Positions 22,659-30,303 of a stretch of 64,000 bases of DNA are shown here, piece after piece. A model generated the notes under the pieces. The model searched no databases, was not told the DNA's origin, and saw nothing but the letters and a program-made list of their open reading frames with translations. Both the position numbers and the translations under genes were made by a program. This stretch comes from Halobacteriovoraceae bacterium. Its GTDB lineage: Bacteria; Bdellovibrionota; Bacteriovoracia; Bacteriovoracales; Bacteriovoracaceae. The DNA is taken from NCBI GenBank assembly GCA_002711995.1, contig PASN01000010.1, forward strand, positions 70,485 through 134,484, read 5' to 3'. Within the stretch, counting starts at the first letter, position 1. Each line of letters starts with the position of its first letter.

Positions 22659-23510
22659 ATGAAGTTCTTGCTCGCATTCTTTTTCTTTACTTTAAACTCT
22701 CAAGCTCAAGACTTGTTTGGCCTTGAACATTCGAGTTTTCACACTGTAAGGCGGACATTAATTCATCAAATTGAAGATCCAGACTTGGACCTGGAGTGGG
22801 AATTGGGAGTTCTCACAAGCGAAGATCAAATCGACAGCGCCTTAATTAGTTTTACTGACGCTTCAGGGGCCTTTTGGACACTCCAAATTTTTCAGAACGC
22901 CCTTCTTCCCACAGGACCTACTTTTTTCGTTCCACATGACAATGAAAACGACGCTTTCTTAACCGGCCTTTCGGCCATAAAGACCTATGGTGGCCATCTT
23001 ATCAGCCTGGATTGCGCAGAACAAAGAATTTGTGCGGGCGGCATTGATCCCAACAGACACTTTCTGCCGAATTACCCACTATTCAGCGAAACAATCATGG
23101 CCTTTTATTTTGCTAAAGACTATCCAGTCATAACTCTGCACAACAACCATGACTCCCATTGGAGTCTTGGCGGCAGTGGAGCAATCTACGCAGATTTAAA
23201 AACACCCTACAGAGGTGGAGAGGGTTATTATCACGCAGGTGATCCTGATGATCTTATTATTTACTCCGATACGATCCCTTCTAGCGAAAGCCCTCTCTTT
23301 GAGCATTTCTCAATGTTTTTTGAAAAGCTGGATATAAATTCAATCTTTGAATACGTCATGCCGGGTGGGGAGCTTGGAGGACATATGTCCACCTATGTAG
23401 TCTTAAACACAGACTACGAATATTTTAATATAGAGGCCCAGCACGGGCACCTGGAAGAGCAAATTGATCTAACTGAGGTGTTATTGGAAGTCTTAGCTAG
23501 AGAACTTTGA
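22659..23510 (+). CDS. Exported protein with M14 carboxypeptidase-like residue set
   Basis: A 283-residue protein of no firm family with a signal peptide (cut after NSQAQ). In order it contains His93-x-x-Glu96 (FVPHDNEND), Asp130-Pro-Asn132-Arg133 (GGIDPNRHF), His161 (ITLHNNHD) and a late acidic strand with Glu259 (FNIEAQHGH). In M14 zinc carboxypeptidases the same order serves as HxxE zinc ligands, Asn-Arg substrate clamp, third zinc His and catalytic Glu. I therefore suggest a periplasmic zinc peptidase or amidase, perhaps acting on peptidoglycan peptides. This rests on residue order, not on recognised homology. It overlaps the convergent lipoprotein gene by 18 bases. Confidence 0.65.
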   Translation: MKFLLAFFFFTLNSQAQDLFGLEHSSFHTVRRTLIHQIEDPDLDLEWELGVLTSEDQIDSALISFTDASGAFWTLQIFQNALLPTGPTFFVPHDNENDAFLTGLSAIKTYGGHLISLDCAEQRICAGGIDPNRHFLPNYPLFSETIMAFYFAKDYPVITLHNNHDSHWSLGGSGAIYADLKTPYRGGEGYYHAGDPDDLIIYSDTIPSSESPLFEHFSMFFEKLDINSIFEYVMPGGELGGHMSTYVVLNTDYEYFNIEAQHGHLEEQIDLTEVLLEVLAREL

Positions 23511-24239
23511 TTCATTGTACTTTCTAAGTTCGAAGAAAAACTCATCATAGCTTTGCCCGATAGATTGTTCGAAGGCCTTTTGATACTTTGACCAAGTCGG
23601 ATCTTGTCTTACCCTAAGAATACCTTCAATCTCACTTTGATCCATATCTTCAATAGCTAAGTATGTTAAAACAAACATGCTTTGGCGATACAGGAGCTCT
23701 TCAACCTTTGATCCATTTCCCATTTTATTAAAAAGAATCTTTAGCACATTAAAGTTCATTGAGTGGCGAGAGATTTTCTCCGCCAATATGGCCTTTTCCA
23801 TATCAAGCGTCATCTTTTCTTCATCAAGATCTTTCATGGCCTTGACAACTTTGCTGTATCCCTCATTTTTGTAAAGCTCAATTAGCTTCTCACTAAATTC
23901 CCTGTAGCTGTCCTCATTTAGTTTCTTCGCAATTGAGACAGTGTCTTCCCTGCTAATGGTCTGTAAGGCCCTTGCGTGCACTCTCTTGTAGGCCTTAAGT
24001 GGGCTAAACGCTTTTTTAGAAATTAAAATTAATTTTTGTGTGTCTTCAACGCTCAGATTATGAGAGGCACTTTTTAAGGTGTCTTGCTTGATACTGCCTA
24101 TTGCATTTTGAATAGCAGGTCCCACAAGAGCAATGCTTAAAACAAAATGATTAAGTTCGCTTTGAGAGTGCTCTTCAACCCTCTTGGTAGCACATCCAAT
24201 GATTGCAAAACTAACGATAAAAACTAAAAGATTCTTCAT
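23493..24239 (-). CDS. Lipoprotein of unknown function
   Basis: A 248-residue protein with a lipoprotein signal and lipobox AIIGC (Cys16). The mature chain is predicted all-helical and charged, with no recognised motif. It ends inside the 3' end of the M14-like gene (18-base convergent overlap). Probably anchored to the periplasmic face of the outer or inner membrane; the residues after Cys (ATKR) carry no Asp retention signal, so outer membrane is more likely. Confidence 0.65.
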   Translation of the reverse strand: MKNLLVFIVSFAIIGCATKRVEEHSQSELNHFVLSIALVGPAIQNAIGSIKQDTLKSASHNLSVEDTQKLILISKKAFSPLKAYKRVHARALQTISREDTVSIAKKLNEDSYREFSEKLIELYKNEGYSKVVKAMKDLDEEKMTLDMEKAILAEKISRHSMNFNVLKILFNKMGNGSKVEELLYRQSMFVLTYLAIEDMDQSEIEGILRVRQDPTWSKYQKAFEQSIGQSYDEFFFELRKYNESKFSS

Positions 24240-24374: not shown

Positions 24375-25727
24375 ATGTCCAAATCCGAAATTCTAGACCG
24401 AGTAAAAGCACACCCCGCACAGAAGGTTAAATATGCCGTTGCCGACATTGACGGGGTATTAAGGGGAAAGGTTGTCCACGTAAATAAATTCCTAAGCTCT
24501 GTCGAAAGCGGCGCAGGTTTTTGCGATGTGGTTTTTGGGTGGGATTCAAGTGACTCCCTATATGATGAAGGCCATGTGACTGGCTGGCACACAGGCTTTC
24601 CTGATGGGCAGACTCGCGTTGATTTAGACACTTTCAGACAAATCCCATGGGAGGATGATGTTCCCTTTTTCTTAGGAGACTTCACAAACTCAAAAGGTGA
24701 GGCCCTACCTATATGTCCAAGAAACCTTTTAAGAAAGATAAACAAAGAAACAAACGAGCTGGGTTACGAGTCCATATTTGCTCAAGAGTTTGAATGGTTT
24801 AACTTTCAAGAAACATCTGACTCCCTTCATGAGAGAGGTTTTCACAAACCCTGTCCTATAACACAAGGCATGTTTGGATACTCTGTTTTGCGATCCTCCC
24901 AAAATAATGGATTTTTCTCAGACTTGTTCGATCTGCTTTTAAAGTTTGATGTTCCACTTGAAGGACTTCACACAGAGACAGGTCCTGGTGTTTATGAAGC
25001 GGCCATTATCTTTACCGATGTTTTAGAGGCGGCGGATAGGGCCACCTTGTTCAAAACGGCGGTCAAAGAGATTGCTCACAAGCATGGAATAATGCCAACC
25101 TTTATGGCCAAGTGGAGTGATGACTACCCAGGTTGTGGTGGACACCTTCACCAGAGTCTTTGGAAGGATGCTAAAAACGTTTTCCATGACCCTGATGATG
25201 AAAATGGTATGAGTGAAACAATGAAGTCTTACATAGCTGGAATGCTTCATTGCCTGCCAGAAATACTACCGATGTACGCTCCAACCACCAATAGCTTTAA
25301 AAGACTTGTGGAGGGTGCATGGGCCCCAACCACACTTACTTGGGGAATCGACAACAGGACTGTGGCCATAAGGGCCTTGCCTGGAGGAAAGAAATCCACT
25401 CGAATTGAGATGCGAGTGCCTGCAAGTGACGTAAACCCATACCTTGCGATGTCAGCATCTTTGGCATCCGGCATGTATGGCGTAAAGAACAACTTAAAAC
25501 TTAACTCCCCTGCCACCAGTGGCAACGGTTATGAGAATAAAGACAATGGCAGCCTTCCTACAAGTCTTAAAGAGGCCACAGAGAAAATGAGAAGAAGTGA
25601 AACGGCCAGAGAGCTCTTTGGCGATGATTTTGTGGACCACTTTACTATGACTAGGGAATGGGAGTGGAAACAGGCCGCAAAGTCAGTCACAGACTGGGAG
25701 CTAAAAAGGTATTTCGAGATAATCTGA
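24375..25727 (+). CDS. Glutamine-synthetase-like gamma-glutamyl-amine ligase
   Basis: A 450-residue member of the glutamine synthetase superfamily, of PuuA/GlnT-like type rather than the housekeeping enzyme. Visible landmarks are the N-terminal beta-grasp part (VADIDGVLRGKVV), EFEWFNFQ, the ATP/glutamate loop CGGHLHQSLW, and the C-terminal NSFKRLVEGAWAPT, WGIDNRTVAIR and RIEMRVPASDVNPYLAM. The adenylylation-loop Tyr of GlnA is not evident. As first gene of a coupled operon with alcohol dehydrogenase, PuuD-like amidase and aldehyde dehydrogenase, it probably joins glutamate to an amine (ATP-dependent), protecting the amino group during oxidation. Start ATG 24375 has AAAGGA upstream. Confidence 0.88.
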   Translation: MSKSEILDRVKAHPAQKVKYAVADIDGVLRGKVVHVNKFLSSVESGAGFCDVVFGWDSSDSLYDEGHVTGWHTGFPDGQTRVDLDTFRQIPWEDDVPFFLGDFTNSKGEALPICPRNLLRKINKETNELGYESIFAQEFEWFNFQETSDSLHERGFHKPCPITQGMFGYSVLRSSQNNGFFSDLFDLLLKFDVPLEGLHTETGPGVYEAAIIFTDVLEAADRATLFKTAVKEIAHKHGIMPTFMAKWSDDYPGCGGHLHQSLWKDAKNVFHDPDDENGMSETMKSYIAGMLHCLPEILPMYAPTTNSFKRLVEGAWAPTTLTWGIDNRTVAIRALPGGKKSTRIEMRVPASDVNPYLAMSASLASGMYGVKNNLKLNSPATSGNGYENKDNGSLPTSLKEATEKMRRSETARELFGDDFVDHFTMTREWEWKQAAKSVTDWELKRYFEII

Positions 25728-26863
25728 TGTGGAAAGATAAACACTCCTATAGTTTTCCCACTTCAATCAGATTTGGCCCTGGTGTGATAGACGAGCTGCC
25801 AACTTATCTTATAGAAAGTGGGCATAAACGCCCAATGATTGTTACAGACCCTCAGCTGGTAAAACTCCCCTTTTTCAATGAATTAATTGAAAAGTTAAAG
25901 AACAAAAATTTAAACCCATTGGTTTTTAACAGGCTGGACTCAAACCCTAAAAAGAAAAATGTATTAGATGGCAAAGTTCATTACTTAGAGAGTGCGAGTG
26001 ACAGTATCGTTGGTATCGGTGGTGGGGCCAGTATGGATGTCGCCAGGGCCATAGCGCTATGGGCGCACCATGATCGCGACCTGTTTGAATTTGACGATGC
26101 TATTGGTGGGGATAGACATGTTGTCGAAAGGATTCCTCTTCTAATTTGCGTTCCAACCACTAGTGGAACTGGAAGCGAGGTGGGAAGAAGCTGTGTGATA
26201 TCTGATGATGACACCCATGAAAAGAAGGTTTTGTTCTCACCTAGACTTATGGCCAAGCAAGTTTTTGCAGACCCAGAACTTACGCTTGCGCTCCCTCCAC
26301 ATATCACGGCTGCCACAGGGATGGATGCCTTAACTCACAACCTTGAGGCCTATGTGGCCAAAGGACTGCATCCAATATGCGACGCCATTGCTAAAGAAGG
26401 GCTTCTCCTTATTTCAAATTCACTGCACGGGGCCGTCAACTCCCCCACAATAGAAAACAGATCAAAAATGATGATGGCGTCTTTAATGGGGGCCACCGCT
26501 TTTCAGAAGGGACTTGGAGTCGTCCACTCACTCTCCCACGCTCTTTCCACAAAGTTTGATATTCACCATGGGCTTGCCAACGCCATCATGCTTGAGCATG
26601 GCATTGAATTCAACTGGGAAGTATCAAAAGAAAAATACAATAAGATTGCCAAACTTATTGGGGTTAATGATTTAAAGAAATGGATTAACGATTTAAATCT
26701 ATCAATTGGCATAACCCAGACCTTAACTGAGCTTGGAGTCCAATCTAGGGATTTACCAATACTTTCCCAGATAGCATTTAATGACAATTGTCATAGGCTA
26801 AATCCAAGAGTTTGCACAAAGACTGATTTTGAAAAAATTTTTCAAAGGGCGCTTGGATGTTAA
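25727..26863 (+). CDS. Iron-containing (group III) alcohol dehydrogenase
   Basis: A 378-residue NAD(P)-dependent dehydrogenase. The nucleotide motif GIGGGASMDVARA, PTTSGTGSEVGRSCVIS, MDALTHNLEAYV and the metal-ligand region HSLSHALSTKFDIHHGLANA fit the iron-ADH family. ATG 25727 overlaps the ligase stop by one base (TGATG); a longer upstream in-frame start lies inside the ligase gene and is unlikely. In this operon it takes the place that PuuB amine oxidase has in the E. coli putrescine pathway, which suggests that the glutamylated substrate carries a hydroxyl group. Confidence 0.9.
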   Translation: MWKDKHSYSFPTSIRFGPGVIDELPTYLIESGHKRPMIVTDPQLVKLPFFNELIEKLKNKNLNPLVFNRLDSNPKKKNVLDGKVHYLESASDSIVGIGGGASMDVARAIALWAHHDRDLFEFDDAIGGDRHVVERIPLLICVPTTSGTGSEVGRSCVISDDDTHEKKVLFSPRLMAKQVFADPELTLALPPHITAATGMDALTHNLEAYVAKGLHPICDAIAKEGLLLISNSLHGAVNSPTIENRSKMMMASLMGATAFQKGLGVVHSLSHALSTKFDIHHGLANAIMLEHGIEFNWEVSKEKYNKIAKLIGVNDLKKWINDLNLSIGITQTLTELGVQSRDLPILSQIAFNDNCHRLNPRVCTKTDFEKIFQRALGC

Positions 26864-27600
26864 AACTAGGCGTCAGTGCTTGCTTTATGTACCCAGATAT
26901 AAAGCGGAAGTTTTTTGGCCCAAAAACTCTAAGCTATATTGAAAACGATATGTTTGCCTATTTGTGCAAGCAAAACGTCATGCCAATCCTAATCCCCAAC
27001 ATAGAGAGCGATTGCCAGCAAATGTATCTCGAATCAATGGATGGATTTGTGCTTCAAGGCGGTTCAGACTTGTCACCCCTAACCTATAATGAATCTCACC
27101 TAGACAGGGAAAAATGGCCAGGTGACAAGACAAGGGACGAGTATGAAATGAATATTTTAAGATGGGCCGTAATCAACAAGCGCCCTGTGCTTGGAATTTG
27201 CAGAGGAGCTCAGTTGATAAACGCATACTTTGGTGGAACACTTTATCAAGACATCGAAACTCAAGTCCAAAACTCTCTTCAACACAGAGACCCTATAAAG
27301 TATGATCGCATTTGCCATGAAGTCAGACTCACACCAGGCGGAAAGCTATTTAATGCCTACCATGAAGAAAACATTTGGGTGAACAGCGTTCATCACCAAG
27401 GCATTAAAACTTTGGGCAAAGGCATGATAGCGGAAGCGGTGTCTCCTAAAGATGACATCATAGAGGCAATACGCCATGAAAAGCTTCCTATCCTTGGTGT
27501 CCATTGGCACCCAGAATTCCACCACACTTTAGAGGACAAAGTCAGTGATCCACAAAAATTACTTGAAATATTCTTCAGCGAGATAGAGGCCACAGCTTGA
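26857..27600 (+). CDS. Gamma-glutamyl-amide hydrolase, PuuD-like class I glutamine amidotransferase
   Basis: A 247-residue enzyme of the peptidase C26 family. Nucleophile elbow LGICRGAQLINAYFGG, the DGFVLQGGSDLSP glycine loop and the HWHPEF His-Glu pair complete a Cys-His-Glu triad. Expected reaction: hydrolysis of the gamma-glutamyl bond, freeing glutamate at the end of the pathway. It overlaps the alcohol dehydrogenase gene by 7 bases and the aldehyde dehydrogenase gene by 4. Confidence 0.9.
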   Translation: MLKLGVSACFMYPDIKRKFFGPKTLSYIENDMFAYLCKQNVMPILIPNIESDCQQMYLESMDGFVLQGGSDLSPLTYNESHLDREKWPGDKTRDEYEMNILRWAVINKRPVLGICRGAQLINAYFGGTLYQDIETQVQNSLQHRDPIKYDRICHEVRLTPGGKLFNAYHEENIWVNSVHHQGIKTLGKGMIAEAVSPKDDIIEAIRHEKLPILGVHWHPEFHHTLEDKVSDPQKLLEIFFSEIEATA

Positions 27601-28952
27601 AAACAACAGACATTGCAGAACAAACACATTTAAGATCCTCCTTAATACCTAATCCTAAAGGAATGGACGAAATATATAAACAGGCAAAGAAGGCCCAAGC
27701 ACACTGGTCAAAGGTCTCTTTAAAGAAACGAATTAAATGCATAGAGCGTTTTTCAGAACTTTTATTGGAAAATAAAGAGGAACTTGCAGGGCAACTCACT
27801 CAAGAGGTGGGCAAGCCAATATCACAGTCGCTGAGTGAATTAGAAGGCGCGAGCAAGAAGTGTGAGTTTTTCATAAATAACTCACAAGAACTTCTCAAAA
27901 GACAGAAGGTGAACCAAGACGGGGCAACAGAAGAAGTTATCGATTATGACCCTTTGGGAGTTGTAGGACATATCAGTGCATGGAACTATCCATACCTTGT
28001 TGGAGTAAACATTTTTGTTCCTGCATTAATCGCAGGAAACGCGGTTTTGTACAAGGCAAGCGAGTTCTGCCCTAAAGTTGGAGCTTCGATTGCGAGTCTA
28101 CTCTGGCAGGCAGGTGTGCCAAAGGATATTTTCACAAAGATGGACACCTCACCCGAAACAGGCAAAGCTTTGCTTGAGCTTCCGTTGAATGGATACTTTT
28201 TCACAGGCTCAAAAGATACAGGTGTGGAAATAGCCAGCAAAGTTTCCCACAAGTTAGTGCCAATGATCCTAGAACTTGGTGGAAAGGACCCTTTATATGT
28301 GACAAACGACATATCCAACTTGGAGAACGCTGTTGATCAGGCAGTTGATGGAACTTTCTACAACAACGGGCAAAGCTGTTGCAGTGTTGAAAGAATTTAT
28401 GTGCATGAGGATGTTTATGACGGGTTCCTATCAAAGTTCATTAAAAAAGTTGCAGATCTCAAAGTTGGAGACCCTAAAGACAGTGAAACATATATCGGCA
28501 AAATAACGAGGCCAGATCATATCCACGCGCTAAATAAGCAAGTCCAGGATGCTTTATCACGAGGAGCAGTTCTTGAATACGGGGGAAAAGCGATAGATGA
28601 AAACCAATATATTCCAACTGTTCTCACAAACGTAAACCACGATATGCTTGTCATGAAAGAAGAGACATTTGGCCCAATAATTGGCATTCAAAAAGTCAGC
28701 TCCGACGCAGAAGCAATTGCCCTTATGAACGATACTGACTATGGCCTTACAAGTTCGGTATTTTGTTCTGACAGGATTCGTGGAGAAAGAATATTAAAGG
28801 AAATCAACTCAGGAACTGGATACCTAAACTGCTGCGACAGGGTTTCTTCTCATCTCCCATGGGCAGGAAGGAAGAACTCAGGTCTTGGTTGCGCTTTATC
28901 CAAGCATGGCCTTTATGCCTTCTGCTCCCCTAAGGGATATCATATTAGATAA
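27597..28952 (+). CDS. Aldehyde dehydrogenase, operon partner of the gamma-glutamyl pathway
   Basis: A 451-residue NAD(P)-dependent aldehyde dehydrogenase. Seen are ISAWNYPYLVGVNIF, the catalytic Glu region LELGGKDPLYVT, catalytic Cys in NNGQSCCSVER, and KEETFGPIIG. It starts with TTG 27597 overlapping the amidase stop as TTGA, with GAGG upstream. The product would be the carboxylate of the glutamylated aldehyde, the substrate for the PuuD-like hydrolase. The 3' end overlaps the convergent 84-residue gene by 57 bases. Confidence 0.92.
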   Translation: MKTTDIAEQTHLRSSLIPNPKGMDEIYKQAKKAQAHWSKVSLKKRIKCIERFSELLLENKEELAGQLTQEVGKPISQSLSELEGASKKCEFFINNSQELLKRQKVNQDGATEEVIDYDPLGVVGHISAWNYPYLVGVNIFVPALIAGNAVLYKASEFCPKVGASIASLLWQAGVPKDIFTKMDTSPETGKALLELPLNGYFFTGSKDTGVEIASKVSHKLVPMILELGGKDPLYVTNDISNLENAVDQAVDGTFYNNGQSCCSVERIYVHEDVYDGFLSKFIKKVADLKVGDPKDSETYIGKITRPDHIHALNKQVQDALSRGAVLEYGGKAIDENQYIPTVLTNVNHDMLVMKEETFGPIIGIQKVSSDAEAIALMNDTDYGLTSSVFCSDRIRGERILKEINSGTGYLNCCDRVSSHLPWAGRKNSGLGCALSKHGLYAFCSPKGYHIR

Positions 28953-29454: not shown

Positions 29455-30303
29455 TTACTCACACTCCAGCATACTTATGATTCGAGTATGCCAGCTATAA
29501 TTCCCAACTTCGCTTTCAGTAGCGTAAGACTTCATATACGTTATTTCCTCCCAATGCATTTCCTTGATTCGAATGGCTCCCAAGGGTTTGATACCCATCC
29601 AGTTTTTAACTTCTTTCATTGGTAGTGTTTTCACATCCACCGCTCTTTCAAACCCTTTTAATTTGCAAATATCATCTGTATGTTCCAAACCTACATAATA
29701 GGCATATCTATTATTAGCATCTTCATCTACTAGATCCTTTAGGTAGAATGTTTTACTGCCAAACTTTCCTTTAGCAACCCGATCTTTGATTGTGTTTGCA
29801 AGCATATAGTGAGGATGGTCTTTATGTCCAACATAGTGATGACTAAACTCGTGAAAGATCATTCCCGTTAACTCGGCAATTGTTGTTTTATTCTCCAAAA
29901 TTTTAGGTATATCGAAATATATTGTGGAGTAAGGGACTTCACCAGTACATAAGTCCTCTTCCCCATTACAGCTTCCTTCTTCAAACCTTGTGTAGGTTAT
30001 GTTTTCTTGGAGTTTCACTTTTGTGCTATTAATCATACTATTCCACATCTTTGCGACTTTAGGATCTTTGATATCGCTCACCCATAGGGATTTGGTTATT
30101 GGAATTAAAAGTTTCTCTTTTAACTCTCGGCCATCTAGCTCTATAAGGTTGACCAGCTCCTCTTTTTTTAGGGGGTAGGAATCCAGTTTGGCCGCAGCAC
30201 GCATCTCCTCAATAAGGCCACCATTGCCACCACCAGTAGACCTTGCCATAGTTGTAGTTGCTCCAAGCATTAAAGTTGTTAATAAAATTGTTTTCGTAAG
30301 CAT
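29455..30303 (-). CDS. Exported HExxH zinc-metalloprotease-like protein
   Basis: A 282-residue protein with a signal peptide (cut near MAR) and a HEFSHH zinc motif at about residue 150 (MIFHEFSHHYVGHKDHPHY), with DEDANNRYAYYVG about 45 residues later that could supply a third Glu/Asp ligand. The N-terminal GGGNGG region is a loop seen in other exported Bdellovibrio-group proteins. Substrate unknown. It is 14 bases downstream of the TIGR02147 gene, so the two are almost surely cotranscribed. Confidence 0.75.
   Translation of the reverse strand: MLTKTILLTTLMLGATTTMARSTGGGNGGLIEEMRAAAKLDSYPLKKEELVNLIELDGRELKEKLLIPITKSLWVSDIKDPKVAKMWNSMINSTKVKLQENITYTRFEEGSCNGEEDLCTGEVPYSTIYFDIPKILENKTTIAELTGMIFHEFSHHYVGHKDHPHYMLANTIKDRVAKGKFGSKTFYLKDLVDEDANNRYAYYVGLEHTDDICKLKGFERAVDVKTLPMKEVKNWMGIKPLGAIRIKEMHWEEITYMKSYATESEVGNYSWHTRIISMLECE

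Follow-up and report, generated by a model that had tools for sequence, protein, structure and literature searches.

A four-gene operon of a Halobacteriovoraceae bacterium, located in a window of 64,000 nucleotides (contig PASN01000010.1, positions 70,485 to 134,484), very probably converts ethanolamine, a common lipid headgroup, to glycine via an intermediate tagged with glutamate. It is a well-conserved, ordinary metabolic operon of an already known pathway kind, for which the substrate prediction is good. The genes and their predicted products are as follows:

24375..25727, plus strand: glutamine synthetase (GS)-like gamma-glutamyl amine ligase, predicted gamma-glutamylethanolamide synthetase (450 aa; PF00120, 331 bits)
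25727..26863, plus strand: iron-containing alcohol dehydrogenase (Fe-ADH), predicted gamma-glutamylethanolamide dehydrogenase (378 aa; PF00465/PF25137)
26857..27600, plus strand: C26 (PuuD-like) amidohydrolase, predicted gamma-glutamylglycine hydrolase (247 aa; PF07722, 175 bits)
27597..28952, plus strand: aldehyde dehydrogenase (ALDH), predicted gamma-glutamylaminoacetaldehyde dehydrogenase (451 aa, TTG start; PF00171, 389 bits)

All four reading frames are intact. The sequence itself bears out the overlaps of 1, 7 and 4 bases (ligase/Fe-ADH, Fe-ADH/C26 and C26/ALDH junctions, respectively) described in an earlier, sequence-only reading of the window, and the Pfam families agree with the enzymes named there. 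The TTG start of the ALDH gene lies within the 4-base overlap with the C26 gene. Among the NCBIfam families shown (for the ALDH, the best 25 of 44 matches), curated cut-offs were reached by none of the four proteins. The flanking reading frames at 22659-23510 (plus strand), 23493-24239 and 29455-30303 (both minus strand) have no Pfam match. The same reading held that transporter and microcompartment genes are missing; neither an amine transporter nor microcompartment genes were seen among the operon neighbours checked, a subset of the window reading frames, but the absence of a transporter is only local, as most relatives carry a permease.

In the proposed route, the ligase would use ATP to couple ethanolamine to the gamma-carboxyl group of glutamate, and the Fe-ADH would oxidise the hydroxyl group of gamma-glutamylethanolamide to an aldehyde. 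The ALDH would then yield gamma-glutamylglycine, from which the C26 hydrolase would free glycine and regenerate glutamate. Glycine could then be used by serine hydroxymethyltransferase (SHMT) and by the glycine cleavage system. Candidates for SHMT (the match contains one stop codon), for GCV-P of the cleavage system and for one GDPD-family phosphodiesterase are present in the window genome. Enzyme families, active-site residues, gene order and the permease adjacent to the operon in relatives are read directly from sequence, and from these we infer the substrate and the individual reactions.

Alignment of the ligase to E. coli GlnA revealed that the metal, glutamate and ATP residues are conserved (E129, E131, E212, E220, H269, H271, R321, R339, R344, E357 and R359; position D50, where the alignment is unreliable, was left out). 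GlnA E327 is replaced by Trp316, and GlnA Y179 aligns to Phe167. The active site of these ligases lies at the subunit interface. A Trp residue occupies the E327 position in 104 of the 105 related ligases that were labelled by neighbourhood; the exception, a Ruegeria ligase of the ethanolamine type, features Phe, as does PDB 5dm3, which we take to be the C. salexigens enzyme. The equivalent residues are Trp296 in PauA7 and Phe331 in GlnA4 (PMC6529630). In the ligase tree, 5dm3 pairs with the Ruegeria L032 ligase (support 100/100), the gene of which adjoins N-formylglutamate amidohydrolase, ALDH and Fe-ADH genes. The window ligase falls in a separate 57-row clade (99/92) of this tree, in which some reference branches are long, and we know of no assayed enzyme from that clade.

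Two identities were rejected for the ligase: type I glutamine synthetase (TIGR00653, the best NCBIfam match, 244 bits against a cut-off of 429, with W316 replacing E327) and gamma-glutamylputrescine synthetase (226 bits against 650, together with residue 316). The only other PF00120 gene of the window genome sits in a 733-residue open frame and probably encodes a type III glutamine synthetase; hence, ammonia assimilation need not rest on the window ligase. Three ligases of alphaproteobacterial plasmids (L026, L033 and L034), about 45-47% identical to the window ligase, are flanked by aminotransferases, a GMC oxidoreductase and polyamine-type ABC transporters in place of the Fe-ADH. Substrates thus vary across the wider ligase family, and these neighbourhoods suggest that other substrates may be used within the clade of the window ligase.

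The Fe-ADH conserves the metal ligands D200 and H204 and the NAD-site Asp41. Its four top plasmid matches (286, 278, 274 and 267 bits) all lie within ligase clusters. Three of these (Marinovum, Rhodobacteraceae SC52 and Ruegeria B32) have a TRAP-ligase-ALDH-ADH organization resembling the Phaeobacter ethanolamine operon, and the fourth, from Legionella lytica, is organized as ligase-ALDH-ADH-amidotransferase. No ligase was found near three lower-scoring plasmid Fe-ADHs that were inspected (Acinetobacter, Agrobacterium larrymoorei and Pseudosulfitobacter). The tree strongly supports (100/99) a separation of all ligase-linked Fe-ADHs from FucO, EutG, YiaY, DhaT and a methanol dehydrogenase; that they form a group to the exclusion of two other plasmid Fe-ADHs has weak support (72/31). 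The Legionella Fe-ADH clusters with the ethanolamine-operon type (100/99), and its partner ligase falls in the wider clade of the window ligase. By pairing the two, Legionella links the two kinds of cluster.

In the C26 hydrolase, the catalytic residues C115, H218 and E220 are invariant across the alignment. The hydrolase slot differs in family between clusters, being filled by a C26 protein, and not by PF05013, in the window. The plasmid clusters of L. lytica and Burkholderia vietnamiensis (L030 and L027) encode a different glutamine-amidotransferase-type hydrolase, 18-20% identical to the window protein and poorly alignable with it; for this reason, no inference on the substrate was drawn from the hydrolase. 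Different families appear to have been repeatedly recruited to this slot. The ALDH features the catalytic cysteine motif GQSC from residue 258.

The gene order is widely conserved. In a panel of 79 genomes, the window's own included, 18 carry a ligase of at least about 46% identity with the Fe-ADH directly downstream. The genome search proposed in the sequence-only reading recovered the full order (ligase, Fe-ADH, C26, ALDH) in 13 of the 17 ligase-carrying relatives, two more being cut by contig ends. In one of the others (G060), the last two genes are swapped and the ALDH is PuuC-like; in another (G041), the ALDH is placed first and an unassigned 233-residue reading frame takes the place of the hydrolase. 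A genome of the same genus keeps both the order and the last two overlaps, again of 7 and 4 bases. A scan of GTDB contigs returned more than 560 relatives of the ligase, and neighbourhoods were read for the best 80. The four-gene order is present in 46 of these loci, mostly from Bacteroidota (Chitinophaga, Pedobacter, Parapedobacter and others). UBA7317 (Bacteriovoracaceae) is also among the GTDB loci, and its ligase is identical to that of G010, a relative of the same family. This recurrence, in both relatives and GTDB loci, indicates that the linkage of the genes is not due to chance.

The substrate is indicated by a permease gene. In 59 loci, such a gene precedes the ligase on the same strand, and in nearly all of them the two are immediately adjacent. 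Five representatives, three of which are from the window's phylum, all exceed the cut-off of NCBIfam TIGR00908, ethanolamine permease (424-461 bits against 381.75). The permease is found in 42 of the 49 GTDB loci having an Fe-ADH, and is absent from all 19 loci of a second ligase class, which has no Fe-ADH. Twelve of the 79 genomes encode an over-cut-off permease, ten of them together with the ligase cluster (Fisher p = 1.6e-6, uncorrected for relatedness). In the remaining two (G020 and G026), which have no ligase, the permease is 41-42% identical to the cluster permeases and maps immediately beside EutB and a reading frame in the EutC position. One permease type is thus found alongside two alternative ethanolamine routes, EutB and the ligase cluster. 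The permease adjoining the ligase in related loci, its pairing with EutB in ligase-less relatives and the kinship of the Fe-ADH with ethanolamine-type operons make ethanolamine a well supported, though unproven, substrate, as the sequence-only reading had guessed. The same three lines of evidence support the chain that it had proposed, from amino alcohol to gamma-glutamyl amide, aldehyde, acid and amino acid.

Similar routes are known. The operons of Chromohalobacter salexigens, Agrobacterium and Phaeobacter share with the window cluster a GS-family ligase, an ALDH, a related Fe-ADH (PF00465 in C. salexigens) and the same proposed chemistry to glycine. In contrast, they feature a TRAP transporter, a PF05013 hydrolase and a ligase of the 5dm3 clade, where the window cluster has a C26 hydrolase, a ligase of another clade and, in relatives only, an APC permease. 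The families of the C. salexigens route are PF00120, PF00465, PF00171 and PF05013 (PMC9397018 Table 2), and Phaeobacter responds to phosphorylethanolamine by inducing the proteins of its operon (PMC10132767). In S. coelicolor, GlnA4 has been shown to be a gamma-glutamylethanolamide synthetase, in line with the GlnA4-type precedent mentioned in the sequence-only reading, and later steps have been proposed (PMC6529630). The GlnA4 cluster is similar to the window cluster in having a ligase without E327, an ALDH and a glutamine-amidotransferase-type gene. It differs in that a regulator is present, GlnA4 has Phe in place of Trp, and a short-chain dehydrogenase, rather than an Fe-ADH, is named in the figure legend; a later review puts SCO1611 with Fe-dependent dehydrogenases. 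The sequence-only reading had held that a self-contained, translationally coupled version in this lineage would be new. This claim fails, because an Fe-ADH has already been placed in this role in C. salexigens (PMC9397018 Table 2; PMC10132767) and many Bacteroidota share the four-gene order.

Some observations do not sit easily with ethanolamine: the ligase lies outside the ethanolamine-type 5dm3 clade, the window genome has no over-cut-off permease, the hydrolase is not the PF05013 protein listed for C. salexigens, and the alphaproteobacterial ligase relatives occur in other gene contexts. The same chemistry might act on another amino alcohol (1-amino-2-propanol, 3-aminopropanol or alaninol), leading to a different amino acid. 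Substrates do differ within the ligase family, and Trp at the E327 position is shared with the ligase annotated as IpuC of the isopropylamine pathway on a Paenarthrobacter aurescens TC1 plasmid, which also has an amidotransferase and an ALDH nearby. However, that ligase is 38% identical, and its cluster includes P450, ferredoxin and short-chain dehydrogenase genes and no Fe-ADH match; P450 and ferredoxin genes are missing here. Given, in addition, that the permease adjacent in relatives exceeds the ethanolamine-permease cut-off and partners EutB in some of them, another amino alcohol is improbable.

A polyamine or diamine route similar to E. coli Puu (PuuA, PuuB, PuuC and PuuD), with the ADH unrelated or acting on an amino-derived substrate, would account for the Puu-type families of the ligase, hydrolase and ALDH, for the shared glutamylate-oxidise-oxidise-hydrolyse logic, and for the polyamine-type ABC transporters adjoining some distant ligase relatives. 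Yet the flavin oxidase PuuB is absent from the four genes and had no match in the relatives' loci searched, the permease of relatives is of the ethanolamine type, and the ligase, the C26 hydrolase (80 bits, cut-off 266) and the ALDH (209 bits, cut-off 850) all score far below the Puu equivalog cut-offs. We consider such a route very unlikely. That the ligase is an ordinary, ammonia-assimilating glutamine synthetase set beside dehydrogenases by chance is scarcely credible: it has the glutamine synthetase catalytic domain and GlnA is its best NCBIfam match, but its score falls short of the cut-off, Trp replaces E327, linkage to Fe-ADH, C26 and ALDH genes is conserved, and the genome holds another long PF00120 gene.

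If the ethanolamine assignment is correct, the B12-independent gamma-glutamyl ethanolamine route would extend to Bdellovibrionota and many Bacteroidota, for which no earlier report was found in the literature searched. It would be readable from a gene signature (TIGR00908 permease, ligase, Fe-ADH, C26, ALDH), and one class of 'glutamine synthetase' genes that recurs in these phyla probably does not serve ammonia assimilation. In the window genome, no permease exceeds the TIGR00908 cut-off (the best match, a generic APC protein, scores 119 bits) and no EutB was found; elsewhere in the phylum, too, there are clusters without a permease. Likewise, S. coelicolor reportedly lacks the permease carried by its relatives, and diffusion and intracellular recycling have been proposed (PMC6529630). 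Ethanolamine could reach the window enzymes by diffusion, through another carrier or from an intracellular origin. It is conceivable, although doubtful, that the permease was lost in this lineage and that the enzymes salvage ethanolamine that is freed intracellularly or derives from digested prey membranes, feeding glycine and serine metabolism without dedicated import. Among the papers listed on ethanolamine use in Bdellovibrio, titles and abstracts yielded nothing relevant.

The second ligase class is monophyletic and includes sequences from Mucilaginibacter, Spirosoma, Fodinibius and others (L063, L065, L069, L077, L080, L089, L090, L100, L104, L108, L112, L113, L118, L119, L121, L123, L127, L129 and L132). 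No Fe-ADH, ALDH or permease genes are present at these loci. The ligase occurs in a conserved order with a HAD-IIA phosphatase and an unnamed protein of 342-414 aa, which has no Pfam, NCBIfam or PDB sequence match and, on reading, may contain kinase-like motifs. In 13 of these loci, a type II glutamine synthetase-like gene, recognized by eye, is added.
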